From positions 1 through 21,371 of the IMG/VR virus record IMGVR_UViG_3300030107_004651: a stretch of DNA of 21,371 bases. One strand, written 5' to 3'. This DNA is from a virus. Position 1 is the stretch's first letter. Each line of letters opens with the position of its first letter. The notes beneath the pieces were generated by a model. The model was not told the DNA's origin, ran no database searches, and worked only from the letters and a program-made list of their open reading frames with translations. Both the position numbers and the translations under genes were made by a program. Shown here piece after piece: positions 2,165 through 18,725 of this stretch.

Positions 2165-3622
2165 TTAATCGAAGGACTTCCCATCGAAGGTTTGGGAACT
2201 AGATACGAGGCTGCCTCCAGTAGCGAAGTTTCCCCCGTCAATCGTGGGTTGGGCAACGTCTCCAAATGAGAGGTTCCCCGATCCATCACTGACAATGGCT
2301 TGCCCATCACTTCCATCCGCTGCAGGGAGTACCCAGATAACATTGGAAGCAACAGAAGCTGGTGCTTTGAATCCAACAGTGTTAGATCCATTCGCAGTCG
2401 CCTCACCAAACAACAGGTTTCGTTGATTAGTGATTGATCCCCCAGCCGGACCGATATAACGATCCTCTGGGTTATTGGCGAAATACGACATGTAATTCCA
2501 TGTCGATCCGCTAGTTGTGTAATTAAGTCGTACTGTTAATCCACTATCTCCAGCAAATCCAGCAGGCAAGCTTGCTAACGGAGTAAAGCTTTCAATGCCC
2601 GTTGAATTCGTAACTTCGATGTAGTCACCATCGCTCGGAGAGCCTGGGATACTTGCAACATTAGTAATGATCGTAAATAGAACAGCATTAGAGACTGCTG
2701 TTGACGCATTGTTAGCGACTGTCTGTGCATTTTGAGCTATCGAAATTGCTGAGTCATAACCACCTGATCCGTCGGATGTTCGAGAATTATTTAAAGCAGT
2801 CGTCGCATTCGTGGAAGCAGTCGAGGCCGTACTGGAAGCTGACGTCGCGGTAGAGGAAGCTGAGTCCGCAGTCGATTTCGCTGTGTTTGCTATCGAGATT
2901 GCTGATGTATATCCACCAGATCCATCTGATTCACGACTGTTATTTAAAGCTGTTGTGGCATTCGTGTTCGCAGTCGCTGCAGTCGTATTCGCTGAGGATG
3001 ATTGAGTGACGGCATAAGCCAATCCTTGAGGATTTCCGCCAATACCATCTCCCTTTAAATTCGTTCCATCGTGGACATAAGTCTCGACTCTGGTGGTAGC
3101 TGTGTTGGCCGCAGCCGTCGCAGCATTGCTAGCCGTTGTCGAAGCCGCCGCAGTTGAGGTCGCAGTAGCCGCAGCGGATGTCGCGGAATTTGCGGCGGTC
3201 GTCGAAGCGGTCGCTGCGGTCGTGGCGGCTGTCGCAGCGGTTTCGGCTGCTATCGCTTTCGTTGCTCCTACTGAATTGCTATCAGTTTGTTCTTGAACAA
3301 CATATAAATTCTGTAAGTCAGCATTATTTAATGCTTCTGCTGTCAGGTTCGATCCATCTGACCAAGCAACTAATTGGTTGTCACCTGGAGTTTGTCTTTC
3401 AATTGTAAGAGTGACACCGCTAGCAGGAGCTGTGGTGATTTGCACCTGTGTTCCGCTAGTCCAACTGAAGTCAGTTCCATCGACCAACGTTGATGTTTGA
3501 GTCCCTGCTAGACGGTCTCTTCCATAAAAAAGCTTTACATGGCTTTTAAGTATGTAAGAGAAGGGAACGCTAAAAGTTGTAGTGCTTCCGTCACCACTGT
3601 ATTCGGCATAGGAGACCGGCAC
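2165..3622 (-). CDS. 17: Tail fibre protein, T7 gp17-type attachment domain
   Basis: A 485-aa protein starting with GTG at 3622. GGAGAG at 3628-3633 is a good Shine-Dalgarno, and the nearby ATG at 3636 is out of frame. Residues 1-113 match the T7 gp17 N-terminal tail-attachment domain: YAEYSGDGSTTTFSVPFSYI, HVKLFY, TLVDGTDFSW, IERQTPGDN, GSNLTAEALNNADLQNLYVVQEQ. Residues about 114-313 form an Ala/Thr/Ser/Asn-rich stalk, probably a trimeric helical shaft, containing a 51-aa direct repeat. Residues about 316-485 form a separate C-terminal head with AYIG-like DRYIGPAGGSITNQRNLLFGEA. It directly follows the ejection-protein genes, as gp17 does in T7, behind its own promoter-like motif. By family knowledge the N-terminus docks on the gp11/gp12 tail and the C-terminus contacts the host. 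The stalk DNA is clearly more GC-rich than its surroundings. Confidence 0.95.
   Translation of the reverse strand: MPVSYAEYSGDGSTTTFSVPFSYILKSHVKLFYGRDRLAGTQTSTLVDGTDFSWTSGTQVQITTAPASGVTLTIERQTPGDNQLVAWSDGSNLTAEALNNADLQNLYVVQEQTDSNSVGATKAIAAETAATAATTAATASTTAANSATSAAATATSTAAASTTASNAATAAANTATTRVETYVHDGTNLKGDGIGGNPQGLAYAVTQSSSANTTAATANTNATTALNNSRESDGSGGYTSAISIANTAKSTADSASSTATSASSTASTASTNATTALNNSRTSDGSGGYDSAISIAQNAQTVANNASTAVSNAVLFTIITNVASIPGSPSDGDYIEVTNSTGIESFTPLASLPAGFAGDSGLTVRLNYTTSGSTWNYMSYFANNPEDRYIGPAGGSITNQRNLLFGEATANGSNTVGFKAPASVASNVIWVLPAADGSDGQAIVSDGSGNLSFGDVAQPTIDGGNFATGGSLVSSSQTFDGKSFD
2732..2962 (-). repeat. Duplicated 51-aa (153-nt period) stalk module in the tail fibre
   Basis: Residues 221-246 and 272-297 of the fibre are nearly the same, both reading NATTALNNSR-SDGSGGY-SAISIA, placed 51 residues apart and separated by Ser/Thr/Ala-rich sequence. 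At DNA level the two copies start near 2962 and 2809 and differ at several silent positions, so the duplication is not fresh. Confidence 0.85.
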
Positions 3623-3630
3623 CGCTTACT

Positions 3631-3664
3631 CTCCATGTGTGCAGCCCTTATAGTAATAGATTTA
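3631..3664 (-). promoter_or_regulatory. Phage promoter-like motif plus imperfect stem-loop before the tail fibre gene
   Basis: On the minus strand the 42-nt gap between the gp16-like stop and the fibre start reads ATCTATTACTATAAGGG (3661-3645) and then CTGCACACATGGAG (3644-3631). ACTATAAGGG resembles the -7 to +3 part of T7-family single-subunit RNA polymerase promoters (T7 CACTATAGGG, T3 CACTAAAGGG). The 13-mer ATAAGGGCTGCAC (3651-3639) recurs exactly before the tail tube A gene. The following CTGCA and TGGAG arms can form an imperfect stem (one mismatch) around CACA, and the 3' arm overlaps the fibre Shine-Dalgarno. The position equals that of phi17 in T7. Promoter function is inferred from motif and position. 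Confidence 0.6.
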
Positions 3665-6600
3665 CTATTGTCGTCCAACTCCTTGTACTGATTGTTCAAG
3701 CCCTTGCTTTATAGAATTGACTTCTTGTCTCGTAACAGCATTTGCTCTTTCCATGAATTCAGGATGTGCTTTCATCATTTGGAAAATCGCTAGCCTGTCG
3801 TAATAAGAGATAATCGCGTTAATAGGTTTTATTAATTGATTTGGATCATTAAGGGTTCCAACTGTTCTTTGTGTAATTGATTCTCCTGGTTTTTTAGTCA
3901 AGCTTGGACCTGCTGGCAAAGTTAGTAATGAGTTGTACTCTTCGTCGAGACTTAAAGCTCTTAATGCATCGCGTAGATCCCTTCCTTTGATAAATCTATC
4001 TATATTCCCCATGACAGTATTTGCACCATTTTTTCCAAGAACCATTGAAGCGGAAAGGTCTCCAACGATTGAAGACATTGCCCTTCTATAAGTCTTTTCT
4101 TGATCGTTAGTCATCTGAATTCTCCACGCCCTTAAACCTGACATATCCGACACATAGCCTTCTGGTCTTGGCTTGTTTCCAAATCCATGTTTCGTCAGCC
4201 AATCATATAGAGGGTCTTGTGACTTCAGTACTGGCATGAAAGGAATTGTTTGATCAAGAGGCAAGCCGAGAGGTCGCTCAATAATGCTTCCCAGCCAATC
4301 TCTTTGCGTCGTTGGCTTCTTTAATATTTGATTAGCAACGGGATAGTTGGAAAAAGAGTCTTCCGCAATTCTTTGTAGTGCATTTAATGCTGGTCGAATA
4401 ATTGGGAAAATATCGTCTTGCTCTAAGGCTGTTCTTTCTTCTGCAGTCAGAAAACGCCTTTTAGTTCCTATCTCCTTAGGATCTCGGAATCCTCTTACTA
4501 CATTTCCTAGAAGACCAGACATAGGGAGAATTCCATTGAATTGGCGAGAAAGTGTTCTTACTGGATCATTTCTTGTGGGATCAGTCATCATGTCAAGAAT
4601 TGAAGTAAGACCTTCCAGGGAAGATTTTCTCTCAAGAAGCCTTGCATAGGCTTTTTGGATCATGGCTAGGGATTCGTCTAGTTGTTTTTTTGAAAAGACA
4701 CCATCATGAAAAGCTCTAAGAAGATCAGCTTGCACACCCATTAAGTCAATAAAGTCAATACTTTTCCCAGAGAGTTTTGCAGCTGCAATGACTCCTGTGG
4801 CTCCTAGAGAGAATGAGTAAGGTTGATTTTTTCTTAACCACCTTTCCTTTTGTTCTGGGTCATCATCAAAAGGTCCTCCGTCAGTAAAGAGTCCTGCTTG
4901 CCATAACGAATATGTTCCGGCAGAAAGGAATCCTGCGGTTATGGCTTGTGCTCTTGCAAGGTTTAAGGCTTCTAAGGGAACATCTCCTCCTCTGTATCCT
5001 GTCTCTTTTGTTATCCAATTAACAGTACTTACAAAAACATCTCTTCTTAGCGTCCAAGCGATTGAATTAGCCGCTGTTCTCCAAACAGGAACTACCCAGG
5101 AAGCAAGAGGGTTCTTTCTTATTATCTCCATTCCAATCATTACTTGGTTCTGTGGTTTCTGCGTGAAAGTAATTCGGTCAGCTCTTTCCTTTCCAATCCT
5201 TCCAAGTTCGTCAGCAACATTTGGAACTCCATTTAAGTTGTTAAATAAGTGAAGTCGGAGATCGTCATTGCTTAATCCTTCTCCTGCAGGCATTCCAACT
5301 TCTCTAAGTCTGAATTTTGCAAGATCGTCGTCGGTCATCATTCCGTTAAACAAAGCTTTATCTGTCATTTCTTCTGTTCTTCTTAGAGCAAAGTCGTCTA
5401 GTTCATTAGCCTTTAAGGTGCCTTCCTTGATTAGTCCTTTGCCTTCTTCTATTGCTCGTAAATATCCTTCGTGCTGTGTCTTCCAGGCGAAAGAAGCAGT
5501 TCTTAGTCCTTCGTCAAAAGCGTTTAAGGCTCTAAAGCTAGGCATATAGCCAGCTGTACTCCCTGTTACATTTTCAATGAGATTTCCTAAGACTTTTCTG
5601 TAAGAAGAATTCAATAAGTTAAAAAAGACAATAGGAGACTTTGCAGGGTTCTTGATGAGTTCGTCGCTAGTAAAGTATGTCCATGATTTGTCGAAACTTG
5701 TTTCAACAAATTGCTTGGTTTCTTCAAGTACTTCTGGTGATATTTCCTTAAGATTGCGACCTCCCATTCTTGTCTTTCCTTGCGTAAAAGCTTCTTTGGC
5801 GTTTCTCATCATTGTCGTTTGGGCTTGCCATAGCATTTTGCTGGCATGACCCAAGGCTTTTAGTTCTTCTTTTGCTCCTACTCTTAAGGCTCCTTCTGCA
5901 ATATCTATAAGTCCATAATCAAAACCAACAAGGACGCTGCCTGGATTCCTAACACCCCAAGAAGCAAATGAACTGAAGAGGTTGTCTTTCCTATAAGTAT
6001 TAAGTATTTCGAGTTGAGTTAACCAATCAGGCCTGTTGATAGGGGCGGCTGTTAGCCCAGCTATTCTTTTAGAAGTTGCTAATTTTTTTAATTCGAGAAC
6101 ATCTCCTTTTTTGACATGATCAAGTGTTTGAGCAAGTAGGCTTCCTCCTGTTATATCGTCATAAGACAAAGTAGATAAATCTTTATCGAAATCTAAAAGT
6201 GATATTGATTCGTCAAGCCCTCCAAACTGAAGTGATCTCAAGGCTTGTCCAACTTTTCGTCTAGCTTGAGCGTCAAGCTGTTCATAGAAATATGCCCACT
6301 GTGCCACGTTGCTTAGACGCATTTTCATTGCATCATTGACAGCTCCTAGAGGAATTGCATCGGCCACTTCGTCGAGCATGTCTGCATAGGCCTGTGCTGA
6401 CTGCCATCGCATCGTTGCTGTGCTGTAAACATTAATAGGAAGTCTGTCTATCCCTCTCAATCTTGATGAAAGTAATTTTGCTATTTCCCTAGGGTCTCCT
6501 CCACGGAGTCTTGCCAATTCAATAACACCTTGAGTCGCGGCTTGTTGAGTAAAGGGCCGCATTAATTCAATTCCTTTTTTACTTGCTGTTCTTTTAAGCG

Positions 6601-6967
6601 CCAGCACCTCAAGCATGGTCGCTATGTTTTCTTCAGTTACAGGTATTTGTGAAAAATTTATCATTCGTCCCGTCGATCCCATGGGCTTACTTCTTGATGC
6701 AAAGCCGTCTTTAACTAGATCTTTGATTTCGTCAGATGAATTAAAAGCGACGTTATCTGCTTCGACTTTCGCCCACCAAGCAGACGATTCAATTCCAATT
6801 TCATCGCCACTCATTGTCTTTAATTTATTTTTCTTTCCTGAGCTTTTTTTGGGCTTTGGTGTGAGCGCATTAATCTCTGCGTCTAACTTGGCTTCTGCTT
6901 CATTAAGAAGGCGTTCTTCCTCCTCAATTTCGTCAAGTCTTTTGTTGATGTCATTGCAATCAGTCAT
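3665..6967 (-). CDS. gp16-like internal virion (ejection) protein, distal part
   Basis: A 1100-aa protein. I start it at the ATG at 6967, which overlaps the upstream stop as TAATG with AAGGAG about 10 nt upstream; the open frame could begin two codons earlier at TTG. Residues 1-40 are a charged coiled coil (RLDEIEEEERLLNEAEAKLDAEI). Most of the rest is long helical sequence without a signal peptide. A region around 615-700 (KNPLASWVVPVWRTAANSIAWTLRR, then AQAITAGFLSAGTYSLW) looks like the conserved amphipathic or membrane-active segment of large phage ejection proteins (LPD38-like in my reading). No catalytic motif was seen. It lies where the 3' part of T7 gp16 lies, directly before the fibre. 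It probably sits in the internal core and is ejected into the cell envelope. The structural role is likely; the exact gp16 equivalence is inferred from position and size. Confidence 0.85.
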   Translation of the reverse strand: MTDCNDINKRLDEIEEEERLLNEAEAKLDAEINALTPKPKKSSGKKNKLKTMSGDEIGIESSAWWAKVEADNVAFNSSDEIKDLVKDGFASRSKPMGSTGRMINFSQIPVTEENIATMLEVLALKRTASKKGIELMRPFTQQAATQGVIELARLRGGDPREIAKLLSSRLRGIDRLPINVYSTATMRWQSAQAYADMLDEVADAIPLGAVNDAMKMRLSNVAQWAYFYEQLDAQARRKVGQALRSLQFGGLDESISLLDFDKDLSTLSYDDITGGSLLAQTLDHVKKGDVLELKKLATSKRIAGLTAAPINRPDWLTQLEILNTYRKDNLFSSFASWGVRNPGSVLVGFDYGLIDIAEGALRVGAKEELKALGHASKMLWQAQTTMMRNAKEAFTQGKTRMGGRNLKEISPEVLEETKQFVETSFDKSWTYFTSDELIKNPAKSPIVFFNLLNSSYRKVLGNLIENVTGSTAGYMPSFRALNAFDEGLRTASFAWKTQHEGYLRAIEEGKGLIKEGTLKANELDDFALRRTEEMTDKALFNGMMTDDDLAKFRLREVGMPAGEGLSNDDLRLHLFNNLNGVPNVADELGRIGKERADRITFTQKPQNQVMIGMEIIRKNPLASWVVPVWRTAANSIAWTLRRDVFVSTVNWITKETGYRGGDVPLEALNLARAQAITAGFLSAGTYSLWQAGLFTDGGPFDDDPEQKERWLRKNQPYSFSLGATGVIAAAKLSGKSIDFIDLMGVQADLLRAFHDGVFSKKQLDESLAMIQKAYARLLERKSSLEGLTSILDMMTDPTRNDPVRTLSRQFNGILPMSGLLGNVVRGFRDPKEIGTKRRFLTAEERTALEQDDIFPIIRPALNALQRIAEDSFSNYPVANQILKKPTTQRDWLGSIIERPLGLPLDQTIPFMPVLKSQDPLYDWLTKHGFGNKPRPEGYVSDMSGLRAWRIQMTNDQEKTYRRAMSSIVGDLSASMVLGKNGANTVMGNIDRFIKGRDLRDALRALSLDEEYNSLLTLPAGPSLTKKPGESITQRTVGTLNDPNQLIKPINAIISYYDRLAIFQMMKAHPEFMERANAVTRQEVNSIKQGLEQSVQGVGRQ

Positions 6968-9900
6968 TAGCAAGAGGCTCCTTGTGAATCGTCAGCGAGG
7001 CGCTGTTTTTTCTTTGCAAGCTCTTCACGTCTCAATTGCAGGTCGCGCTTGAGTTGCTTTTTGGCTTGCAGCTCTTTTGAGGTAGCAGATTTCTCTACTT
7101 TTTTTACCTCTGGAGGAATCGGTTTTTTGGCAACCTCCTCAGGAACAACTCCTTTGTCTGGAGTCCATTCATAAGTTTGAGGCTTCCTTGGTGGAGTTGG
7201 CGTAAGTTCAGCCTTGAACTCAGTTGTTCCATAAGCATTGCTTTCTCTATAGGTTTTAGGTGTACGTTGTGGAATTGATCTTTTTTGAGGAGTAAACAAC
7301 TCCTGACCAAAACCTGCTCTTTTCTTTGTTTCCCAGCTCATTTTGTCCCAGTTTTGATCTAAGTATTCGGCATTGTTTAATGCATTCCCATAAGCTGCAT
7401 CTCTTAACTGGTAGTCATATCTCAGTCTTAATTCTTCTATTAATCCTCCTGCGTTTTTATTCCCTGCCTTATATGTAGGGAATTGATCTGTTGCATATTG
7501 AAGAGGAAGTTGACCTGTTTCATCTGCAAATAATTCGTCAATGAAATCTGATTGATTGAATTTCGTGTCTGGTCTGCCAGGAAGATTAGAGAAAGGAGCT
7601 TGAACTTCTCCGTTATTAATTGCTTCCTCAAGTATCCGTTTCTTAATTCTTTCTCGTAAAACCATGTCCATTCCCCGTGGTTTGTAATCAACCATTGGGA
7701 CAACGCTTTCTACTCCCTCAGGGTCAGTAATCCTGCCCATTCTTGAGGTGGTAGGAGCAGATGGAAGATCTAATTCACCTTGAGGCTTGGGAACATTTAA
7801 TTCAGGTGCTTCATCTAAAGCATCAATAACTCCTCCCCATCTCCCTGTTGTTTCGTAATACTCAACAAAGGCTTCGACAATATCTTCTTTCTTTGCTCTC
7901 CAAACTCTTCGACCTGTTCTTGCTTTGACTATTGCAGCGATCTCAGGAGCATTTGTAGGTGCTGCGAATTTTCTTAAATCATCCCTGTTTAAAGCAAGGA
8001 GACTATTTCTGTATTCATCAACGGTAGGAGGAATACTTGGGTCGAGAAATGTATTCGGAGGTTCTACTTCGTCTACCGTCCCTGGAAGTGTTTTGTTAAT
8101 GTCATCTCTTAATACTCTTGCTTGATCTAATAACCAATTACCTCCTGGGATTTGTTCGGCGGTTGTTAGCCTTCTCCCTGAAGGAGAAGTTGTGGCTTTG
8201 TTTATATCTCTAACACCTTTTTGAACGGTTTCTTCAATAGCAACTCTGCCAATATTTAAAAGACTAATGCCGTTATCTAATGCCGCTAAAGGTCCAACGC
8301 CAAATGCACCGCTTTTCCATGGCTTGCCAAATGCTCTGTCAACAGCATTAATCATTCTTTGAACGCCTTTTCTGCCTGCTTCTCTTCTCGCTAGTTCAAT
8401 TGCTTCGTTTGGTTGCGTCCAATTGAAATCAAGAACTTCGACAGGGGGAGCCTTTACTAACTCTCCTTTGACGGCAAGTTCAAGTTGGTCTCCTACTAGT
8501 GTCCTTATTGGTTTAATTCCTTCTCTAAGAACATCAAGACCTTCTTGTGCTGCAACTAAATCTTTTTGTGCTTTATTTATTAATCGCTTGGCTCCTCTAT
8601 CTGTTAGTTTCCCGTTTTCTCTTCTTGTTTCAATATCTGTAATTTTTGCTTCTATATTTGATATTTCAGCTTCTGCTGTCTCTAATTTTATCTGCCTCTC
8701 TGCTTCTCTCGACGGTGCATCTACCTCGTCAAAAATAGCTCTTAAGTCGTTGTCACTTAGTTCGTCAAGCGCTGCAAGATATGAATCCGCTTCTGGTCTC
8801 GGATCAGGAATATCTAGTTGAACAGGAGGTCTTGCATCAAGAAGGTCTTGGTTGCTTCTTCCTCCTAAACCTGTTTCAAGTATTTGGTTTTGCCATTTGT
8901 CTAGCTCGTCAAGTTGTGCAGATAGGTCTTGTCCTGTTTGGTTTGCTTGTCGTATTAAGCCACCTCTTTGCTCTCTGATTGCAGTTATCCATTGTTGGAT
9001 TTCAGGGTTTAAATCTCCTTTAAAAGTGAAGCCCAACTGACCATCTGGGCCTTCTTCCACTAGGCCCATATCTTTTAGTCTTTGACGCTGATACTCGACC
9101 TGGGCGATTTGTAGATTTTCGTCAAGACTTCTACTTATTGCAGAGTCATATGAAGCAAGAGAACTATCAAGAGGTTCAAATGCTTTGATTTCTCCACCAG
9201 GAGAAGCAACAACATCTCCGCGAGGGGAAGGAACAACGTCCCCACCAGGAGAAGGAGTGATATTTGTGCCTGGAGTAGAGGTAAGTTCACCTCCTTTTCT
9301 TATGGGAGGTAGATAAAGGTTGCTGTCAGGTTGTAAAGCATAGGGAATATATGGTCCGATTTCTGCTTCGGCAAGCTCGTCTAACGACCTAATACTTCCA
9401 CTCGTTATATATCTTCTAACAGGACCAATTAAAGATCCTGCTCCAACGAGGGTTAAAGGTAAAAGGACACCTTCGGCAAAGATACTTTTCCCTACTCCTG
9501 TTAAGTAGTTGTCTGTTTCTTCTTTTCTGCCAGGGACTTCAAAATAATTATCAAAAATATTAAGAATATTTCCTTGTTCTTGATCTAGAAATGGTGCAGC
9601 AAATGAAGCTTCAAATAAAAATTCTCCTGTAAACTTTGAAGCATTTACCGTTTTTCTAACCTTCTCACTTCCTTTATAAGCAACAGCAAATTTTTTAGCC
9701 AGTTCAGCCTTTTTTAAATTCTTTGCAAAAGATACTAAGAATCCAAGTTTTTTAATCTTATTAAGAACAGAAGTACCTGTATAGAAACCAATTATTTCTC
9801 CTCCTATTTCTCCTCCTAAATCAAGACCTGCTTCGTCTGCGGGATTTACTCCTTGGTCAAGGCCTAATCGAAATGGGTTGTATTTTCTTGCTGTCTCATC

Positions 9901-10185
9901 TGAAATTGTCCAAGCATCTGATACGTCTATTTCTTTCTTTTGCGCTAAATCACCAAGAGCATTTCCTAGTTTGCTAACTGCATTAACTGGCCCAACAACT
10001 AATCCTGCCTTTGTATCAGGAGAGCTAAGAGCATTAAAAAACTGAACAAATGGTTTTAAGTCTCCCGCGTCTTCTTCTCTATTTTCAATGCCTTTTGCTT
10101 TTTCTTCAGCGAAAGTTGGCTGATAAGGCGAGCGATTCCTAAGGGTTTCTTTCTCAAGTTCTGGAAGAGTAAAAGTTGATGACAT
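6967..10185 (-). CDS. gp16-like internal virion (ejection) protein, proximal part
   Basis: A 1072-aa protein with ATG at 10185 and an excellent AGGAGG 8 nt upstream. Residues 119-141 are a Gly-zipper-like stretch (DLGGEIGGEIIGFYTGTSVL), and 236-256 form a second hydrophobic segment (AEGVLLPLTLVGAGSLIGPV); both could insert into membrane. Residues 303-334 are four 8-aa SPGGDVV-type units, a flexible linker. Residues about 493-556 form a strong charged coiled coil (AEAEISNIEAKITDIETRREN...). Residues about 728-785 (LNRDDLRKFA...RRVWRAKKEDIVEAFVEYY) resemble a small SAP/LEM-like helical domain. The Lys/Arg-rich C-terminus (1015-1072) is again helical. I see no muralytic motif. Its place between the gp15-like gene and the second large protein makes it part of the ejected core. 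I do not recognise the family with confidence. Confidence 0.82.
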   Translation of the reverse strand: MSSTFTLPELEKETLRNRSPYQPTFAEEKAKGIENREEDAGDLKPFVQFFNALSSPDTKAGLVVGPVNAVSKLGNALGDLAQKKEIDVSDAWTISDETARKYNPFRLGLDQGVNPADEAGLDLGGEIGGEIIGFYTGTSVLNKIKKLGFLVSFAKNLKKAELAKKFAVAYKGSEKVRKTVNASKFTGEFLFEASFAAPFLDQEQGNILNIFDNYFEVPGRKEETDNYLTGVGKSIFAEGVLLPLTLVGAGSLIGPVRRYITSGSIRSLDELAEAEIGPYIPYALQPDSNLYLPPIRKGGELTSTPGTNITPSPGGDVVPSPRGDVVASPGGEIKAFEPLDSSLASYDSAISRSLDENLQIAQVEYQRQRLKDMGLVEEGPDGQLGFTFKGDLNPEIQQWITAIREQRGGLIRQANQTGQDLSAQLDELDKWQNQILETGLGGRSNQDLLDARPPVQLDIPDPRPEADSYLAALDELSDNDLRAIFDEVDAPSREAERQIKLETAEAEISNIEAKITDIETRRENGKLTDRGAKRLINKAQKDLVAAQEGLDVLREGIKPIRTLVGDQLELAVKGELVKAPPVEVLDFNWTQPNEAIELARREAGRKGVQRMINAVDRAFGKPWKSGAFGVGPLAALDNGISLLNIGRVAIEETVQKGVRDINKATTSPSGRRLTTAEQIPGGNWLLDQARVLRDDINKTLPGTVDEVEPPNTFLDPSIPPTVDEYRNSLLALNRDDLRKFAAPTNAPEIAAIVKARTGRRVWRAKKEDIVEAFVEYYETTGRWGGVIDALDEAPELNVPKPQGELDLPSAPTTSRMGRITDPEGVESVVPMVDYKPRGMDMVLRERIKKRILEEAINNGEVQAPFSNLPGRPDTKFNQSDFIDELFADETGQLPLQYATDQFPTYKAGNKNAGGLIEELRLRYDYQLRDAAYGNALNNAEYLDQNWDKMSWETKKRAGFGQELFTPQKRSIPQRTPKTYRESNAYGTTEFKAELTPTPPRKPQTYEWTPDKGVVPEEVAKKPIPPEVKKVEKSATSKELQAKKQLKRDLQLRREELAKKKQRLADDSQGASC
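9184..9279 (-). repeat. Four 24-nt units encoding SPGGDVV-type octapeptides
   Basis: Residues 303-334 of the 1072-aa protein read as four consecutive octapeptides: STPGTNIT, PSPGGDVV, PSPRGDVV, ASPGGEIK. The last three are close to one another at DNA level. The Pro/Gly content suggests an extended hinge between the membrane-associating N-terminal third and the helical remainder. Confidence 0.8.
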
Positions 10186-10187
10186 GA

Positions 10188-13091
10188 TTAGCGCCTCCTG
10201 CGGGTAGTGACTATGGGTGCTGTCAAGTTGGAGTACTCCCCAACTAGAACTTGCAAGGCTTTTGCATAACCTTTATCAGTGGAATAGCCCTGTTCTTGCA
10301 GCAATTCTGTAACTCTTACCATGCTTCCTCCAGACTCAACCCCCGTATAACCTTTCCAATCTTTATGCCATCTATTGATTACATACTTGAATGAATCTTC
10401 TGGTGTTTTGAAGTTAAGAAATTCATCCTTTACTTTTGAGGCCTTTCCTGTTATTGGGTCATCCTCTTCTGTTAAGACTTTTGTCCCTCCGCCTGGCAAC
10501 GCTTTTAATCCAAAGTAGTTATGAGTTCCGCTTGGCTTTCTCCCAAAGGTAGATTCCTTGACGAACTGAGCCGCTACTACTTCTGGGTATAACGCACCTA
10601 AGGATTTAGCGAGATTGTAAGCAGCAAGGAATCTTTGTTCATTCGTTCCAACAAGAACATCAGCTCCTGCAGGTGGGCCTTCCGAGGCATGGGCAGCTCC
10701 TCCAAAAAGAACATTGGCGACCCAGCCAGCAGCACCAAGATTAGATGCTTGGTTGAGGTTTAAATTGCGGATCTTACGGATTTGTATTTCAGCGGCTGCA
10801 GCGGCTTCGTTCTCTCTTCTTACCTTGATTCTGTTTTGGAGGAATTTCCCAACTTCGCCTGTTGGATCGAATAAAGACTCTCCATTGTCATTCTTCCAAA
10901 ACCTCAATTGTTCTAAAAGAACTCGGTCAGGGTGAACCTTTGCTCTTTTGGCTAAACCTTCTAGTTGAGAGCTGATGTTTTTTCCTTCTTGTACGTTTTT
11001 AAGTTCTTCGTATAGCCATGTCGAACTCATGATGGGCATCATTCTGTAACTCTTGATTTGGTAATTAGTTAAAGTAGGAGAAGAAAGCCGCCCCAAGGGT
11101 TCTTCTATCCCTTTTGATAATTCTCTTGGGCCAGGAAAAATCCTCTCAGGAGGTGGGCTTGTTTGTTTATTTGGGATGGGTTCGTTGACTGGGACGGAAC
11201 CATCTGTTGTTTCAGAAATACCTAAAGCTCGGTTTTTGAAATTCTTGTATTCGTCTGTCTTTCTGAATTCACTGATTGCATTTCTAATAAGCTTCCATGC
11301 CTCAGCCTGAGGGATTACTGATGCTTCTGGATTCTTTTCAAACCAATCACTAGCAGCATCATCTGCAATTTGTTTGTAGACATTTTGCAATTCGTTTCCA
11401 AATTCAACTAATTTTTGATTTCCAGAAAGAGAGACTGCACCTAATAAATTCCCTCCAGTCGCTTGCATTAATTGGGCGAAATTATTCTTATCAGGCATCA
11501 ACTCTTCAATATCTGGGTCGGCCAAGTCAAAGGCCAACTCTTTCTGAATTAAGTTCTCTGTTCCTTGTGGGAGTTTTCCTAGGAATTTTTCTCTCTCTCT
11601 TGCTACTCTTTTTAACTCTTCACGCTTTTGTCTTTGTAACTCTGGAGTTGGTTGACTCGTTGCTATTCGATCTATTAATGCATAGGTCTCTTTTATGTTT
11701 TCTGCGCTGAAAGCACTTGGAGGAAGAGTGTATATTTCATCTTCTAACTTTTGAAGTTCTAACGGGTCTGAAATTATTTCTGCAAAAGATTCAGCTGATC
11801 GGTTCCTGTCTTCAATATATTTATCTATATCTCTGTAGCCAAGTTCTTGGCCCATTTCTCGAAATGTTTTAAGTGCTGCTTTATAGCCTTCACTTCCAAC
11901 TTCAAAATCACCTGGACCACCTTCGCTATCCCATAAGAAATCAAGGCCTTGTTCGGCTTGTTGTTGGTTTAAATCGTAATTAGTTTGTCTTCCTTGTAAT
12001 CCTTCGTTCTTCATATCTAACAGCTTTACTGGCATTGAGTCCGCTACTGTTGGCCTTGTTGCGTAATCATCTCCTGCACTTCCGAGTCTGATATTTTCAA
12101 TTAAACTTTGCACCCCAGGATTACTTTGAAACCCTCCAAAGATCTCTCTCTTAATAGCTTCTAAAGTATTTACTTTTGCTTTTCCAGCAAGAACTGATAA
12201 TGATCTATCTATTTCAGCCGTTAAAATTGCACTTCCAATAGGAATAAATTCCGGGTCGCCAATTGTTATTTTTCTCCCATCGTCAGGATGGACGAATCCA
12301 TTCTCTTGTAAATCTTGGATCTTGGTTGCTATTGAAGCAACCGTTGCATGTTGAGTGTTAATTGCTAATTCTTCTCTGTACCATGTGTCGTGTTTTTGTC
12401 TGTATTTATCCCAAGCTTTATTTAATTCTGGTATGACGTAATAGTGATATTCAGGCTCGTCTCCTGTAAGGCCATATCTTGAAGTTACTTGTTGAGCAAT
12501 TGTGACGCGACGTTGTTCAAGCTCTGGACTCCCTGGCTTAAGAGCACTTAACAAGCCAGCGTTGTTTGTTAAATCGTTTTCAAATGCATCGTTAATTTCT
12601 CCTGCAGCAAGTCGAGCTAACGCTCTTCTTCTTCCTACTAATTTCCAAGGATTAACTTCTTCTAGTAAGAGAGCAGCAACAGGATCTTTTGTTTTTAATT
12701 CATTGATCTGAGCACTAGCGTCAGCTGCGCCTTTTTCTGCTTGGATCTGTAGTGATAATGCTGCTTTTGCTGTTTGATTTTTGACAGCGTTATAAGCTTC
12801 TTCCTCTCCTGCTTCGATATTTCTTTGAGCATAATCTTGATAAGCGCTCGAACCGGCTTTGATTAAATTGTTAGTAAAAGGTCCTAGTGCTTGGGAAAGT
12901 TGTTCCCATTTGTTATACCCCTTAACGCTTCCTGCACTTCCCATTTGAAGCGTCACAATGCCTGACGGATTAGGCATTCCTGGTGGACTGGCTGCACCTG
13001 CTGTTTGTTGTTTGCCAGGCTGAATGAAAGCTCCTAAGGGCTTGGCTACAGGGGTGATTTGTCCGAATGGGAGTTGTTTTTTAGTAGCCAT
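10188..13091 (-). CDS. gp15-like internal core protein with C-terminal glucosaminidase domain
   Basis: A 967-aa protein starting at ATG 13091, 3 nt after the gp14-like stop, with no strong Shine-Dalgarno. Residues about 55-800 are largely helical; the segment after the Pro/Gly-rich N-terminus (LSQALGPFTNNLIKAGSSAYQDYAQRNIEAGEEEAY) parallels the start of T7 gp15. Residues about 820-955 match the glucosaminidase (FlgJ/LytG-type) fold: FLAAYNLAKSLGALYPEVVAAQFVKESTFG with likely catalytic Glu846, NYFGLKA, VLTEE, then FLNFKTPEDSFKYV and GYSTDKGYAKAL. By family knowledge this cuts the glycan strand of peptidoglycan. Residues 784-802 (NLGAAGWVANVLFGGAAHA) form a hydrophobic, signal-peptide-like segment immediately before the domain. 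In T7 the muralytic domain is on gp16 instead. It probably opens the cell wall during genome ejection. The domain call is strong; the gp15 equivalence rests on order and N-terminal pattern. Confidence 0.9.
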   Translation of the reverse strand: MATKKQLPFGQITPVAKPLGAFIQPGKQQTAGAASPPGMPNPSGIVTLQMGSAGSVKGYNKWEQLSQALGPFTNNLIKAGSSAYQDYAQRNIEAGEEEAYNAVKNQTAKAALSLQIQAEKGAADASAQINELKTKDPVAALLLEEVNPWKLVGRRRALARLAAGEINDAFENDLTNNAGLLSALKPGSPELEQRRVTIAQQVTSRYGLTGDEPEYHYYVIPELNKAWDKYRQKHDTWYREELAINTQHATVASIATKIQDLQENGFVHPDDGRKITIGDPEFIPIGSAILTAEIDRSLSVLAGKAKVNTLEAIKREIFGGFQSNPGVQSLIENIRLGSAGDDYATRPTVADSMPVKLLDMKNEGLQGRQTNYDLNQQQAEQGLDFLWDSEGGPGDFEVGSEGYKAALKTFREMGQELGYRDIDKYIEDRNRSAESFAEIISDPLELQKLEDEIYTLPPSAFSAENIKETYALIDRIATSQPTPELQRQKREELKRVAREREKFLGKLPQGTENLIQKELAFDLADPDIEELMPDKNNFAQLMQATGGNLLGAVSLSGNQKLVEFGNELQNVYKQIADDAASDWFEKNPEASVIPQAEAWKLIRNAISEFRKTDEYKNFKNRALGISETTDGSVPVNEPIPNKQTSPPPERIFPGPRELSKGIEEPLGRLSSPTLTNYQIKSYRMMPIMSSTWLYEELKNVQEGKNISSQLEGLAKRAKVHPDRVLLEQLRFWKNDNGESLFDPTGEVGKFLQNRIKVRRENEAAAAAEIQIRKIRNLNLNQASNLGAAGWVANVLFGGAAHASEGPPAGADVLVGTNEQRFLAAYNLAKSLGALYPEVVAAQFVKESTFGRKPSGTHNYFGLKALPGGGTKVLTEEDDPITGKASKVKDEFLNFKTPEDSFKYVINRWHKDWKGYTGVESGGSMVRVTELLQEQGYSTDKGYAKALQVLVGEYSNLTAPIVTTRRRR

Positions 13092-13907: not shown

Positions 13908-14353
13908 TTGTTTTTCCTCCAGAAATGACGAAAGAGTTTTCCGTCTTCCCCTAGAGGTATGGGTTCGTCAATTGTGAATCCCAAATGTTTCAACCATCTA
14001 AATGTTGTGGAATTAGAAGCTAAAGCCCAGTTATGGAGGAAAGTATTTCCCTCGTTTATTAATTCATTGACCCATCTTTTCCCTCCTTTAATGAACTGTC
14101 TTCGATGACTAGAAGTTGACAGCAGATCGTCTGTGCCAAGAAGCCAAATCAAAGAATCATTTACTCCACAGAGACCTACAGGCATTCCATTGTCTCCATC
14201 TATGCAACGGCAGATGTTGCTATTCTCCCAGCTTTCCATCACCGCTTCAACACCTGTGACACCATGACTATAAAAAACTTCGAGTTCATCTTGCTTCCTT
14301 AGGTTGCGTGCAATGATCTCCACCTTTGCAAGCTTAGGTTCTGCCCAGTTCAT
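13904..14353 (-). CDS. 13: gp13-like protein (T7 internal protein A family, GNAT-like fold)
   Basis: I choose the ATG at 14353: it overlaps the tail tube B stop as ATGA and has AAGAGG 7 nt upstream, giving 149 aa. The open frame reaches an earlier ATG at 14392, which would add 13 residues but has no comparable ribosome site. The protein matches T7 gp13 in pattern: GMPVGLCGVNDSLIWLLGTDDLLS in the middle, then FLHNWALASNSTTFRWLKHLGFTID and a final GKLFRHFWRK, against LWNYVWVGNTSHIRFLKTIGAVF in T7. The layout is that of a small acetyltransferase-like fold, but I see no clear acetyl-CoA binding Q/RxxGxG/A loop, so enzyme activity is doubtful. In T7 gp13 is needed for infectious particles and is not a major virion component. 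Confidence 0.88.
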   Translation of the reverse strand: MNWAEPKLAKVEIIARNLRKQDELEVFYSHGVTGVEAVMESWENSNICRCIDGDNGMPVGLCGVNDSLIWLLGTDDLLSTSSHRRQFIKGGKRWVNELINEGNTFLHNWALASNSTTFRWLKHLGFTIDEPIPLGEDGKLFRHFWRKNK

Positions 14354-16860
14354 TGCATACCTCTTGCTTGGGCTGTTATTAATCCAACCCATTCACATGT
14401 GCTGAATTTGCATGGATGAACAGTGTCATTGTGTATTTCGACAATGCAGTTTTCTCCTTTACTTGCGATAGGTATTTGAAAGACTCCTTCGTGATAGCGA
14501 TCATCCTCTTGGTCATAACCTCCGCTAGGTAATGCACTTCCTAAAGTTGAATTTCTTACTCGAAGACTTGTGCTGTCATATTTGTAAACAGCCGTATCTC
14601 GGCGTTCTGCCATGACACGGGTTTCAAAATAATAGCTTTCGTGAAAGCGGAGTTTGGCGTGCCTGACTTGTGTTCTCTCTATATTTCCTGCAGCTTTTCC
14701 TCCTCCTATTTCTTTATAAACTTTAAAACGAGTAAATCTATATCTAAAATTATAAGATTCGCCAAAATAGATCGGAGAACTACTCCAATCACCATCAGCA
14801 ATAATCTGGTTACCAGACGTTGCTGAACCAAGCAATACACCACCGTTTGACGTGGTGGAGTAACCACTCCATGCTTCCGTCTTAGACGCAATCGTGTAGG
14901 GAAGCGTCCATGTCGTTTTCTTTGTAGTCGCGTCATATGTACCCGCTGAAACTCTCACCCCTACGGGAGTTTCAGTCGTGGTGCTTATACGGCGATCTAA
15001 AAGTAAAGGATATGGATTCGGGGTTACGTCACTGAGTCTGTCGGAAACAGCTACCTTCTCCAGCCAGATATCAGTTCCATATTGTGCAAGTAGGTATAAG
15101 GTTTCTTCTACGCAAAGAATCTGCAGGATCTTATCGGCCCCTCCTACTTCCCAATGCGACCAACTGCTTTGTGCTCTTTCAGAGCCTTGCCCTGTATTCC
15201 TATAGAAATATTTGTAGACATAGATCTGTTTGGTGTATCCCGTTTTGCTTGACAGGGCAAACCAGGCATTGCCTGTGTCGTTTGTCGTTAGCTTGTAAAC
15301 ATCAGAAGGAATGTAACTGCTGACATAGCTGGTGAGATCAGAGGCGTCAGCAACTAATGCGCTTCCTGCTCCCCTAACAGCGAACTCTCTAAACTGACTC
15401 CATTGGCCATTTGCTTGTGCAAAGATAATTGTTCCAGCTACAGGAACAGGCCTGCAATTAATATCTACTTCGTATTGAGTTAGAACAGTGATTACTGCAC
15501 TGGCTGGTGTAAGTATAGTTTCTGCAGCATTAAATCTAAACTGAATCTGGTCAGAAAAGATTATTAATTCGTCCTGATAAGGTATGGCATATCTTAGGAT
15601 AGATACCTTGTTGTTACTAGCTTGTAGGTCTATTGGATCTGAGTCAAGTATTGTCGTTACTGTCTCTGGAAAGAATTCAAAGAATGCTCTTGCTCGACTT
15701 AAAATAATATTTTCATCAGCCAGAAAACCTAACCTATTTTTATAGATAAATACATCTTGAATTGGATAGCCAATGAAGCTTGGGTCAGGAGCACTAATCC
15801 CATCGCCGGCTGTTCTCTTTCCCCATTTAGGAATAGTTGTCCCGCTATGAGTTGTTCCATCTGCAGGCCCAAAATAGAACTGACCGTTAGCAAGGCGAAC
15901 CAAAACCTGAGGCATAGTTGCTGCATCTATTTCATACTTCTCTCCAGGGGCTACGGTCTCTTGCCATGAACCTTCTCCAAATGTTCCCGCCCCTGTTCTT
16001 GGAACAAATTCAACGTAATAACCATCGAATGTATTACCAGGGTCTCCAACTATTTCTACTTGATATCCCGTTGGTGCAATTGTGGGTAACTCTGTAAACG
16101 TCTGAACTGAATTTGTAATTGCTGTTATATCAGCATTAGCTCTTGCATCTTTTGCAGCAACAGTTATCGCGCTTGAAGAAGTGAGATGAAGAACACTGCC
16201 ATGCCTTGTAATGCTGACGCCTGATACTCCTGACAGTCCCGACTTGATTGATTCAGCAATGTCAGCTGTGCTGATCCTGTTCTCTGTTGTAGTACTACCG
16301 CTAACAACAACAGGGGCTACAGCAGTTTGAATAGATGCGTTAGTTCCATTGACGTTGCATTCGTATGTGTTCCCATAATTTGCTGCCTTAACCCAAACCA
16401 ATGCTTCATGAGCTGCAGGCCTGGAGGTGGCAGGCGCCGTGCTGCTCGTCATCGCAGGCGAAACCTTGATTGACGAAATGAAGGTGTAGTCAGCAATAGT
16501 TGCTGCTCTTATATCTGTCTTGGCACTGACAACAGAAGAGAAATAATTGAAAGCATTTGTTGCTGGGTTAACTGTTTTCTCGTTCCCCTCTAGGTCATAG
16601 ACCTTGATGGCACTTGTCCCAATAACAACTAAATACTTTTCTCCTGAGTCACGAAGAATCTGGTGAAAGAAAACATCTCCATAACTGCTAGTGCTGACCT
16701 TGGCAATTACTTCTGTTCCTTCTCTTTTTCGCAGTCCTTCCGCAAGAGAACTCATTCCATTGACTTGAGTTTCTCCTTGAGTGGGATCTCTTGATGCGTC
16801 CGGCTGCATCGAAATCCCCTGTATTAAATTAGGAATTGTGTAACCAACAAGATTAGCCAC
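14350..16860 (-). CDS. 12: Tail tube protein B (gp12-like, tail nozzle)
   Basis: An 836-aa protein (T7 gp12 is 794). The first codon is GTG at 16860, inside the end of tail tube A (8-nt overlap), with AGGGGG about 8 nt upstream. Residues 10-48 (NLIQGISMQPDASRDPTQGETQVNGMSSLAEGLRKREG) are the diagnostic gp12 N-terminus. Further family marks are ETVTTILDSDPIDLQASNNKVSILRYAIPYQDELIIFSDQIQF near the centre and a beta-rich C-terminal third ending VEIHNDTVHPCKFSTCEWVG. By family knowledge six copies form the tubular nozzle of the short tail, below the gp11 gatekeeper ring. The N-terminal third has many Ala/Thr/Ser-rich beta strands typical of its propeller and insertion domains. Confidence 0.95.
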   Translation of the reverse strand: MANLVGYTIPNLIQGISMQPDASRDPTQGETQVNGMSSLAEGLRKREGTEVIAKVSTSSYGDVFFHQILRDSGEKYLVVIGTSAIKVYDLEGNEKTVNPATNAFNYFSSVVSAKTDIRAATIADYTFISSIKVSPAMTSSTAPATSRPAAHEALVWVKAANYGNTYECNVNGTNASIQTAVAPVVVSGSTTTENRISTADIAESIKSGLSGVSGVSITRHGSVLHLTSSSAITVAAKDARANADITAITNSVQTFTELPTIAPTGYQVEIVGDPGNTFDGYYVEFVPRTGAGTFGEGSWQETVAPGEKYEIDAATMPQVLVRLANGQFYFGPADGTTHSGTTIPKWGKRTAGDGISAPDPSFIGYPIQDVFIYKNRLGFLADENIILSRARAFFEFFPETVTTILDSDPIDLQASNNKVSILRYAIPYQDELIIFSDQIQFRFNAAETILTPASAVITVLTQYEVDINCRPVPVAGTIIFAQANGQWSQFREFAVRGAGSALVADASDLTSYVSSYIPSDVYKLTTNDTGNAWFALSSKTGYTKQIYVYKYFYRNTGQGSERAQSSWSHWEVGGADKILQILCVEETLYLLAQYGTDIWLEKVAVSDRLSDVTPNPYPLLLDRRISTTTETPVGVRVSAGTYDATTKKTTWTLPYTIASKTEAWSGYSTTSNGGVLLGSATSGNQIIADGDWSSSPIYFGESYNFRYRFTRFKVYKEIGGGKAAGNIERTQVRHAKLRFHESYYFETRVMAERRDTAVYKYDSTSLRVRNSTLGSALPSGGYDQEDDRYHEGVFQIPIASKGENCIVEIHNDTVHPCKFSTCEWVGLITAQARGMQ

Positions 16861-17512
16861 GGCTATACCCCCTGTTTCTTCCTAGGAGTCCAAGACCAGG
16901 AGAGTAGGTTCCAAACGGCTTAAGGCCTGGGCCTCCGGTCAGACTGTTTGCTTGTGCTTGCTCTAACTCAACTCTTTGAAGTTCAACCATCGCATCCTGT
17001 TCATCTAACTTTGTGTACTTAAAGATGGAGTCATCACTTAGAACTCGATCACTAAAAACTCTTGCTGATCGAATCGTTACCCATCTGTTGTAAGCCTCTG
17101 GACATTCATCCCAGGGGAGCAACCAAACAACGTCTGCTTTTAATGTCGTGAGTACATCATCGGCAATTGTGTAAGAGCGTGTTGTTCTGTCATAAACCTT
17201 TAATCCTCTTAGTTGAAATCTTTGTGCCCATTCATAATCATCAGCTGCAAATGAAACGACATTGGCCGGAACGACTATCTGATTGCTGCTGTTTTTTGCA
17301 AACTCATATTCATATTCTGTATTCCAACTCCATCCTCTTGTTTGTCCTTCCTTGAAGAACTCAAGGATTGTTCTTTGAGCCATTGCTGCTTCGACGAGCT
17401 GCTCGTTTTCAAGGCTGTTAACTGGCTGCTCGCCAATGTTTTGCAAGCAGATATTCACTGCATCTAAGAGGGTTGTCCTCCCTGGAGTTACAGATTGATT
17501 TGCTAGGCCCAT
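16853..17512 (-). CDS. 11: Tail tube protein A (gp11-like adaptor/gatekeeper)
   Basis: A 219-aa protein (T7 gp11 is 196). Family marks are LLDAVNICLQNIGEQPVNSLE near the N-terminus, TRGWSWNTEYEYEF (about 60-73), LKVYDRTTRSY, then DECPEAYNRWVTIRSARVFSDRVLS, matching T7 DEMPECFRYWIVTKASRQF. By family knowledge a 12-copy ring links the portal to the gp12 nozzle and carries the fibre docking sites. The Gly/Arg-rich C-terminus (GLGLLGRNRGYSRG) is an extension relative to T7. The ATG at 17512 has no classical Shine-Dalgarno; a stem-loop (17520-17533) sits 7 nt upstream instead. Confidence 0.95.
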   Translation of the reverse strand: MGLANQSVTPGRTTLLDAVNICLQNIGEQPVNSLENEQLVEAAMAQRTILEFFKEGQTRGWSWNTEYEYEFAKNSSNQIVVPANVVSFAADDYEWAQRFQLRGLKVYDRTTRSYTIADDVLTTLKADVVWLLPWDECPEAYNRWVTIRSARVFSDRVLSDDSIFKYTKLDEQDAMVELQRVELEQAQANSLTGGPGLKPFGTYSPGLGLLGRNRGYSRG

Positions 17513-17519
17513 AGATAAT

Positions 17520-17547
17520 CTGCACGGGTGCAGCCCTTATGTTATCG
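17520..17547 (-). promoter_or_regulatory. Promoter-like motif plus perfect stem-loop before tail tube A
   Basis: On the minus strand GATAACATAAGGG (17546-17534) runs into CTGCACCCGTGCAG (17533-17520). The 13-mer ATAAGGGCTGCAC (17540-17528) is identical to that before the tail fibre. The palindrome folds as a 5-bp stem CTGCA/TGCAG with loop CCCG (a sixth C-G pair would leave only two loop bases). It begins just after the GGG that would be the transcript start and ends 7 nt before the ATG. The element follows immediately after the intrinsic terminator, as expected for a transcription restart. Confidence 0.6.
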
Positions 17548-17588
17548 AAAAGCAAAAAGAAAGCCCCCCGTTAATTAAAACGGAGGGC
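17548..17588 (-). terminator. Intrinsic terminator after the capsid gene (T-phi position)
   Basis: Read on the minus strand, GCCCTCCGTT (17588-17579), loop TTAATT, and AACGGGGGGC (17572-17563) form a 10-bp GC-rich stem with one G-U pair. It is followed at once by TTTCTTTTTGCTTTT (17562-17548). It starts 23 nt downstream of the capsid stop, the same place as the T-phi terminator of T7. Partial termination here would keep capsid mRNA in excess over tail mRNA. Confidence 0.93.
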
Positions 17589-17611
17589 CCCACCAAACAA
17601 ATTAAGTGTAG

Positions 17612-18619
17612 TTAAGGAATCTCAATTACACCAGCACACTCAGCTCTTAGCACATTCATACCAATAGCCATGCGTGCCACCATGAGGGAAGCTTGGTACA
17701 TGACATTGAACGATGAGCCTGCGGGAGTGATCTGCAGACTTGGAGACTTGAGAGTTAAAGCACCGATTGCATCCTTATGGAATACAAAGCCTTTCGCTTT
17801 GGAAAGGTTCTGCTCGTAAGCGGTGTTCTTGTCATAGGTTCCATTTGTATATGCAGACTGAACAACATGGTTCGACTCATATACAGGAATACCTTTGACT
17901 CGCAAAATGCGGCCAGAAGCAAATGACCCATTCTCTCCGCCGCCACTATTGAAGTCGGCGTTGATCGCTCTTGTTGAATCCAATAGGTAATCGTATTCAT
18001 CAGGAGCTACGACGGCCACCAAGTTCTCTGTAGGAACATCAGCTTTCTTCATGTCAACTTTGATTGCACTGATCTTTTCGATCAGCTCATCGCCCTTGGC
18101 ATTTTTAGTAGCTGCGGCATAGCCAGCTGAAAGTTCCTGACTATGGCCAGTACGATTAGCGTTGACGGTTTTAGCTAGAGGCTCAGTAGTAGTCTTCGCC
18201 GCTGCATATAAAACACGGGCTGCACGTCGGTCCCATTCGTAGGCAAGTGCCTGCCCTAATTGATGAGTAACATCTTGCCTAGTTTGGTAGTAATTCATCA
18301 TCTCATCGATGTCATAAATTACCTCGTCCGCTATTAATAATCCATCAAGATTAATAATTTGTTCATTGCGGTCACCAGGAGAGTTTGTTGCCCCTAATAT
18401 AGGCTGGCCCGGAACATGATAGGCCGCTTCAGCCCGCCCTGAGACTGGGAATGCAGCACTTTTTCCACCCTTGATAGAGCGTTCCTTAATTTTACCTTTG
18501 AACACGCAATTGCGATCAAAAGATGATAACAATTCCGCAATTCCAAGTTTCAGAAACAGGGAGTCAACTGCACCCGTTCCCTTAATCTGACCTAAGCGGT
18601 CTAAACTGGCATTAGCCAT
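17612..18619 (-). CDS. 10: Major capsid protein (gp10-like)
   Basis: A 335-aa protein, close to T7 gp10A (345 aa), with the HK97-type fold known for the family. Diagnostic stretches are SIKGGKSAAFPVSGRAEAAYHVPG (48-71), IINLDGLLIADEVIYDIDEMMNYYQTRQDVTHQLG (88-122), VVAPDEYDYLL, GRILRVKGIPVYESNHV and HKDAIGALTLKSPSLQ. The stop is TAA with the terminator close behind; I see no slippery site or open extension that would yield a gp10B-like minor form. The ATG at 18619 is preceded by an AT-rich leader without a clear Shine-Dalgarno. Flanking scaffold and tail tube genes agree with the call. Confidence 0.97.
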   Translation of the reverse strand: MANASLDRLGQIKGTGAVDSLFLKLGIAELLSSFDRNCVFKGKIKERSIKGGKSAAFPVSGRAEAAYHVPGQPILGATNSPGDRNEQIINLDGLLIADEVIYDIDEMMNYYQTRQDVTHQLGQALAYEWDRRAARVLYAAAKTTTEPLAKTVNANRTGHSQELSAGYAAATKNAKGDELIEKISAIKVDMKKADVPTENLVAVVAPDEYDYLLDSTRAINADFNSGGGENGSFASGRILRVKGIPVYESNHVVQSAYTNGTYDKNTAYEQNLSKAKGFVFHKDAIGALTLKSPSLQITPAGSSFNVMYQASLMVARMAIGMNVLRAECAGVIEIP

Positions 18620-18725
18620 GAGATTTTATGTAAAGGCGAGTGTTATTTTCTGTCTCATTAACAAGGGTGTCTCCCGCAGGAGGCCTAATTAACTGCACAG
18701 ATGCAGAACAACTCGTAAAGATAGA
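18620..18725 (-). promoter_or_regulatory. Capsid gene leader with palindrome CTGCA-N4-TGCAG
   Basis: This 106-nt gap between scaffold and capsid is the longest non-coding stretch within the window. It contains the palindrome CTGCATCTGTGCAG (18706-18693 on the minus strand), with the same 5-bp arms as the stem before tail tube A but a different loop. A weaker stem CTCC-TGCG-GGAG lies at 18682-18671. A sequence ATCTAT (18725-18720 region) also occurs before the fibre copy, but the ATAAGGG block is missing here. The place is that of T7 phi10. Regulatory function is inferred from position and shared arms only. Confidence 0.45.

Follow-up and report, generated by a model that had tools for sequence, protein, structure and literature searches.

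Short symmetric dyads dispersed through a T7-like podovirus and its relatives as putative stoperator-like repressor sites

T7-like phages have long been regarded as strictly lytic, and the means by which some of them could be temperate is an open question. To our knowledge, MarR sites have been put at the RNA polymerase promoter and nowhere else in published models. In cluster A mycobacteriophages such as L5 and TipsytheTRex, which depend on the host RNA polymerase for transcription, a monomeric repressor binds stoperators, oriented and asymmetric sites of 13 bp (PMC9283540). In temperate T7-like phages, MarR sites around the RNA polymerase promoter were proposed by Boeckman 2022, as that work is cited in PMC10134795. 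The phage promoters of LUZ100 have been mapped by TSS sequencing (PMC10134795).

The window, meaning the whole 21,371-base stretch of DNA analyzed here, is a 21.4-kb IMG/VR fragment of a T7-like podovirus whose minus strand carries the late genes for portal, scaffold, capsid, both tail tubes (A and B), internal proteins, and fibre. It had no match to phage records at the DNA level, and the nearest isolate by protein identity was Synechococcus phage S-SRP02 (Table 1), which encodes a T7-like RNA polymerase matching T7 RNA polymerase structures, a MarR-type regulator, and an integrase. Two contigs from metagenome 3300030098 were close to the window. L001, whose tail tube A protein is identical, extends back as far as the end of the RNA polymerase gene, and the near-twin L157 carries terS, terL, p013, p019, MarR (6492-6809), integrase, a single-subunit RNA polymerase (8219-10630, 58% to that of S-SRP02), and the start of SSB. 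MarR, integrase, and RNA polymerase were present in this near-twin and in relatives, which bears out the premise of the preliminary description that the phage has an RNA polymerase of its own.

That description had pointed to an identical 13-mer, ATAAGGGCTGCAC, at two intergenic minus-strand sites. The coordinates were exact (3651-3639 and 17540-17528) and both copies lie in gaps, one of 42 nt before the fibre ORF, which runs down from 3622, and one of 99 nt before the tail tube A ORF, which runs down from 17512. There was no third exact copy within the whole 21,371-base record. Because gaps make up only ~410 of the 21,371 bases (roughly 2%), finding both copies in gaps is unexpected, at an estimated ~0.005. 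The word is real, but its symmetry had been overlooked, as it contains half of a 14-bp dyad. Relatives keep this dyad and an adjoining block, GATARCATRAGG, as separate elements, and ATAAGGGCTGCAC is thus their junction, the end of the block and the start of the dyad.

Table 1 Coordinates of dyads, blocks, structures, and genes. Positions are those of the window unless another record is named.
Feature	Sequence	Position	Strand	Remarks
Fibre dyad	CTGCACACATGGAG	3631..3644	(-)	8 nt upstream of fibre GTG at 3622; exact match to CTSCAYNNRTGSAG
Fibre block	ATTACTATAAGGG	3645..3657	(-)	Adjoins fibre dyad upstream; weak copy of GATARCATRAGG block
Perfect dyad, tail tube A	CTGCACCCGTGCAG	17520..17533	(-)	7 nt upstream of tail tube A ATG (17512); 34 distinct upstreams compared
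Tail-tube-A block	GATAACATAAGGG	17534..17546	(-)	Upstream of tail-tube-A dyad; candidate promoter part
Capsid dyad	CTGCATCTGTGCAG	18693..18706	(-)	73 nt upstream of major capsid start codon; third exact copy in window
Decayed dyad	TTGCAAAGGTGGAG	14318..14331	(-)	18 nt past tail tube B stop; 2 mismatches
Intrinsic terminator		17560..17591	(-)	3' of capsid gene, just upstream of tail-tube-A block and dyad; 13-pair stem, T run
Hairpin of capsid mRNA leader		18660..18692	(-)	Directly after capsid dyad; conserved
Tail tube A gene		16853..17512	(-)	81% identity to S-SRP02 protein
Tail fibre gene		2165..3622	(-)	59% to S-SRP02; PHROG tail fibre matches
Major capsid gene		17612..18619	(-)	79% to S-SRP02 capsid
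Second palindrome	ACTCCTAGGAGT	L009 13599, 18908, 18931, 10058, 10072; L157 6466, 10626, 10649		
T3-like repeat	TTACCCCTCCCTTAAG	L159 5020, 5072, 7791, 8349, 12117, 19687, 40689		RHEph01

The dyad has the two-fold symmetric 14-bp consensus CTSCAY-NN-RTGSAG. Exact copies numbered 65 in 25 records against 2.35 expected (0.02 expected in the window), and 45 of these (69%) fell in gaps, which account for 9.7% of the sequence. A second scan found the dyad in 21/21 records and the reversed control in none of the 21. Genomes of these temperate-type T7-like cyanophages contained about 4 to 12 dyads each, mostly in short gaps and near gene starts and stops. The dyads were syntenic at nine gene classes with 7 to 17 genomes per class: terS, RNA polymerase, SSB, post-exonuclease, capsid, tail tube A, fibre, MarR, and the early promoter. 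The fibre and capsid positions were each shared by 16 genomes. The copy after tail tube B, decayed in the window, was exact in several relatives, at a place like that of T7 phi13. Upstream of start codons the offsets were 8-9 nt for fibre, about 8 nt for tail tube A, 73-76 nt for capsid, 6 nt for SSB, and 35-64 nt for RNA polymerase, and past stop codons they were 8 nt for exonuclease and about 18-19 nt for tail tube B. Dyads also adjoined terS and preceded MarR, and in the early gap of six genomes a pair 41 bp apart flanked a -10-like element. A T7-style layout had been suggested for the two original sites, and the sites do occupy transcription-control positions of a T7-like phage; further sites recurred in near-identical contigs and relatives.

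Other elements were seen nearby. Repeats of CAACCACCACC abut early-gene start codons, standing in for a Shine-Dalgarno sequence (L009 10873 and 12840; L157 ~3900), and a Fur-box-like GAGAATGATTCCCATTCTT lies upstream of early dyads (L009 ~10694; early gaps of G009, G013, and G017). The capsid-leader hairpin consists of two helices with compensatory changes, and had 91.7% of cells paired and a covariation of 0.462, versus 0.241 in shuffles.

The tail-tube-A gap was compared in 76 loci representing 34 distinct sequences. Its order was kept: terminator, block GATARCATRAGG, dyad CTGCACNNNTGCAG, and start codon. The right arm TGSAG was retained in 31/34 distinct upstreams and GATARCATRAG (<=1 mismatch) in 25/34. 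In low-GC relatives the block reads AAACTAAGT and the dyad, CTGCATACGTGCAG, stands alone. The gap and its dyad were therefore conserved as had been anticipated, but the GGG was not: it occurred directly 5' of the dyad in only 6 of the 34, and a promoter defined from it is rejected as stated. The T7/T3-like TATAAGGG look was likewise not kept in relatives, with ATAAGGG in 1/34. The consensus that had been offered for the phage’s own RNA polymerase is not supported in that form, since the part common to all classes is a symmetric dyad, unlike the asymmetric T7-type promoters.

Degeneracy was alike in both arms (position 3 G65/C20 and position 12 C61/G23; position 6 C56/T22 and position 9 G54/A20), in counts that are biased towards symmetry by the part of the sites scanned against gene direction. 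AT peaks flanked the dyad at -4 and +4. The dyad was symmetric overall, yet the outer right arm had decayed in the SSB, RNA polymerase, terS, and MarR classes, with the left arm and TG kept nearly everywhere. Upstream of MarR, most relatives had a half-decayed dyad, CTCCACCGGTGCCA, beside ACTCCTAGGAGT. S37 had the variant CTACR-N4-TGTAG in the same places, the same base being altered in each arm.

On balance, we lean towards the dyads being distributed, stoperator-like operators of a phage repressor, likeliest of MarR type, that would silence the prophage. A dimeric phage repressor would bind them, the likeliest being the MarR-type winged-helix protein encoded just 5' of integrase. Dyads in the early, RNA-polymerase, and MarR regions would serve as operators, those across middle and late genes would stop transcription from being initiated or elongated, in the manner of mycobacteriophage stoperators, and the prophage would be kept silent by their occupancy. 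Because the sites are dyads, we do not class them as mycobacteriophage-type stoperators and propose only that they would work alike. More tentatively, the symmetric operators of temperate T7-like phages could form a genome-wide network at which a bound MarR-type dimer blocks both the single-subunit phage RNA polymerase and the host enzyme, with site and recognition helix co-evolving into separate immunity types.

The MarR-type protein appears to be the likeliest binder, judging from the match of its predicted fold to the DNA-bound E. coli MarR-operator complex 5h3r (TM 0.69) and from its recognition helix, NSTVSR, which was kept in dyad phages and altered in S37 and S31. The S37 helix is NASASR, so that site and helix differ together there, but RNA polymerase and other genes diverge too, and the variant dyad of S31 was weak. 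As a natural test we sought a MarR-free relative, and found none. Further winged-helix candidates for dyad binding were p019 and p013. Two MarR-like winged-helix genes stand in tandem ahead of the integrase, first p019 and then MarR (L009 13120-13494 and 13625-13942), p013 is a third winged-helix protein (L009 9650-10024 (-)), and the p019/MarR/p013 arrangement was found in most relatives having that region. We rejected p019 as the binder because its recognition helix varies widely and the dyad does not.

A second palindrome, ACTCCTAGGAGT, often paired, was located upstream of MarR, where the RNA polymerase and SSB genes meet, and within the early gap (Table 1). In Pasto, copies of GTCAC-N6-GTGAC are found in the early region and surround RNA polymerase, and by analogy with the placement of these operators ACTCCTAGGAGT could be the real MarR operator in place of the dyad. 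MarR may therefore not be the sole explanation.

Relatives outside the group, among them the temperate T7-like phages LUZ100 and RHEph01, provided the strongest test. The mapped phage promoter motif in the LUZ100 record is AATTACCACACAGGTATGGA, and the dispersed dyad-like element, TATCCACNAGCGCATA, differs from it. The LUZ100 elements lie inside the -35/-10 spacers of the mapped host promoters P1 and P2 (L140 378 and 579), on either side of RNA polymerase, upstream of SSB, and in the interval separating capsid from tail tube A. RHEph01 has 14 dyads, ATCCACNNGTGRAT (control count 1), lying upstream of MarR and of RNA polymerase as well as downstream of the genes for RNA polymerase, primase, post-exonuclease, and capsid. 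It also has a separate, unannotated T3-like repeat, TTACCCCTCCCTTAAG, which occurs seven times at promoter places, and this putative promoter motif is distinct in sequence from the dyads. Dispersed dyads are thus associated with the MarR-integrase-RNA polymerase module and are not promoters in LUZ100 nor, apparently, in RHEph01. Since they accompany this module and differ from the mapped promoters of LUZ100 and apparently from those of RHEph01, we favor distributed operators, and the shared site resembles repressor landing sites more than it does a start signal for the phage RNA polymerase.

A composite arrangement is a real possibility, to which we give a little less credence than not. Here tail tube A, fibre, and a few other genes would have a phage promoter ending in GATARCATRAGG(G), its +1 lying at the G run, and the dyad just downstream would be a repressor operator on it. 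The block may belong to the promoter of tail tube A and to that of fibre. Conservation of the tail-tube-A block, similar blocks before fibre and after exonuclease, leaders of ~25 nt, and the place of the tail-tube-A site after the capsid terminator all favor the arrangement, but the block is absent or weak at capsid, RNA polymerase, SSB, and terS, and the G run is not conserved. The composite falls within the operator reading as one form of it, so that the probabilities of the readings overlap. With GATARCATRAGG and the G run as promoter, the preliminary description would be right for tail tube A and fibre and wrong on the consensus.

It is doubtful that the dyad itself is the promoter core for the phage’s own T7-like RNA polymerase, with the start at or just past the right arm. 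The promoter idea was reasonable because the dyad places include those of T7 promoters, and they agree with T7 and LUZ100 at RNA polymerase, SSB, post-exonuclease, capsid, post-tail tube B, and fibre. The core, CAC-NN-GT-NN followed by +1, is like those of Syn5 (ATTGGGCACCCGTAA, then G; PMC3950665) and LUZ100 promoters, and the nearly constant left arm and TG, with the decay of the outer right arm in four classes, would suit directionality. No other motif was common to all classes, many of which were without any other recognized promoter motif, and the conserved capsid leader hairpin begins immediately 3' of the dyad. However, the site has two-fold symmetry and changed symmetrically in S37, the counterparts of T7 specificity-loop residues 748, 756, and 758 vary widely where the dyad is the same, and leaders would be only 0-10 nt for several genes. 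Dyads and promoter motifs are also separate in LUZ100 and RHEph01, and the early host-type promoter is flanked by paired dyads. Host sigma-70 promoters were rejected as well, as a consensus scan at the dyad sites gave hits no more than shuffles.

An RNA hairpin by ribosome-binding sites, controlling translation, is very improbable. Dyads stand 6-9 nt ahead of some start codons and the perfect copy could fold with a 5-bp stem, but positions 3/12 and 6/9 show no compensation (Fisher p 1.0 and 0.54), and other dyads are 35-76 nt away from starts or within divergent early gaps. The independent variation of the arms thus disfavors a hairpin. Chance can practically be dismissed as the origin of the ATAAGGGCTGCAC repeat, for although 14 repeated 13-mers exist in the window, so that repetition alone is weak evidence, the dyad is kept at matching places in relatives and its exact copies far exceed expectation.

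If the operator reading is true, dispersed late-gene sites would constitute a genome-wide silencing device in the T7-like family, and the dyads give exact sequences that are testable in LUZ100, RHEph01, and S-SRP02. Gap motifs repeated in T7-like phages should not be called promoters from position alone.

Like mycobacteriophage stoperators (PMC9283540), the dyads are short sites repeated along a phage genome, in promoter regions and short gaps; unlike them, they are symmetric 14-bp dyads and putative repressor sites in a T7-like phage with its own RNA polymerase. They share a MarR-integrase-RNA polymerase module and palindromes near RNA polymerase with the proposal for temperate T7-like phages (Boeckman 2022, cited in PMC10134795) and with LUZ100 and Pasto, and differ from that proposal, in the form in which it is cited, by extending through the structural genes as far as those for capsid, tail tube A, and fibre. 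The promoters of T7, LUZ100, and Syn5 have similar gene positions, and those of Syn5 and LUZ100 resemble the CAC-NN-GT core of the dyads, whereas the dyads are symmetric with no conserved GGG, and in LUZ100 promoter and dyad are separate sequences. Operators of E. coli MarR and its relatives are likewise short palindromes for winged-helix dimers, and the phage model matches DNA-bound MarR. However, ordinary MarR operators serve one or a few promoters, and the dyads here are spread along the whole genome.
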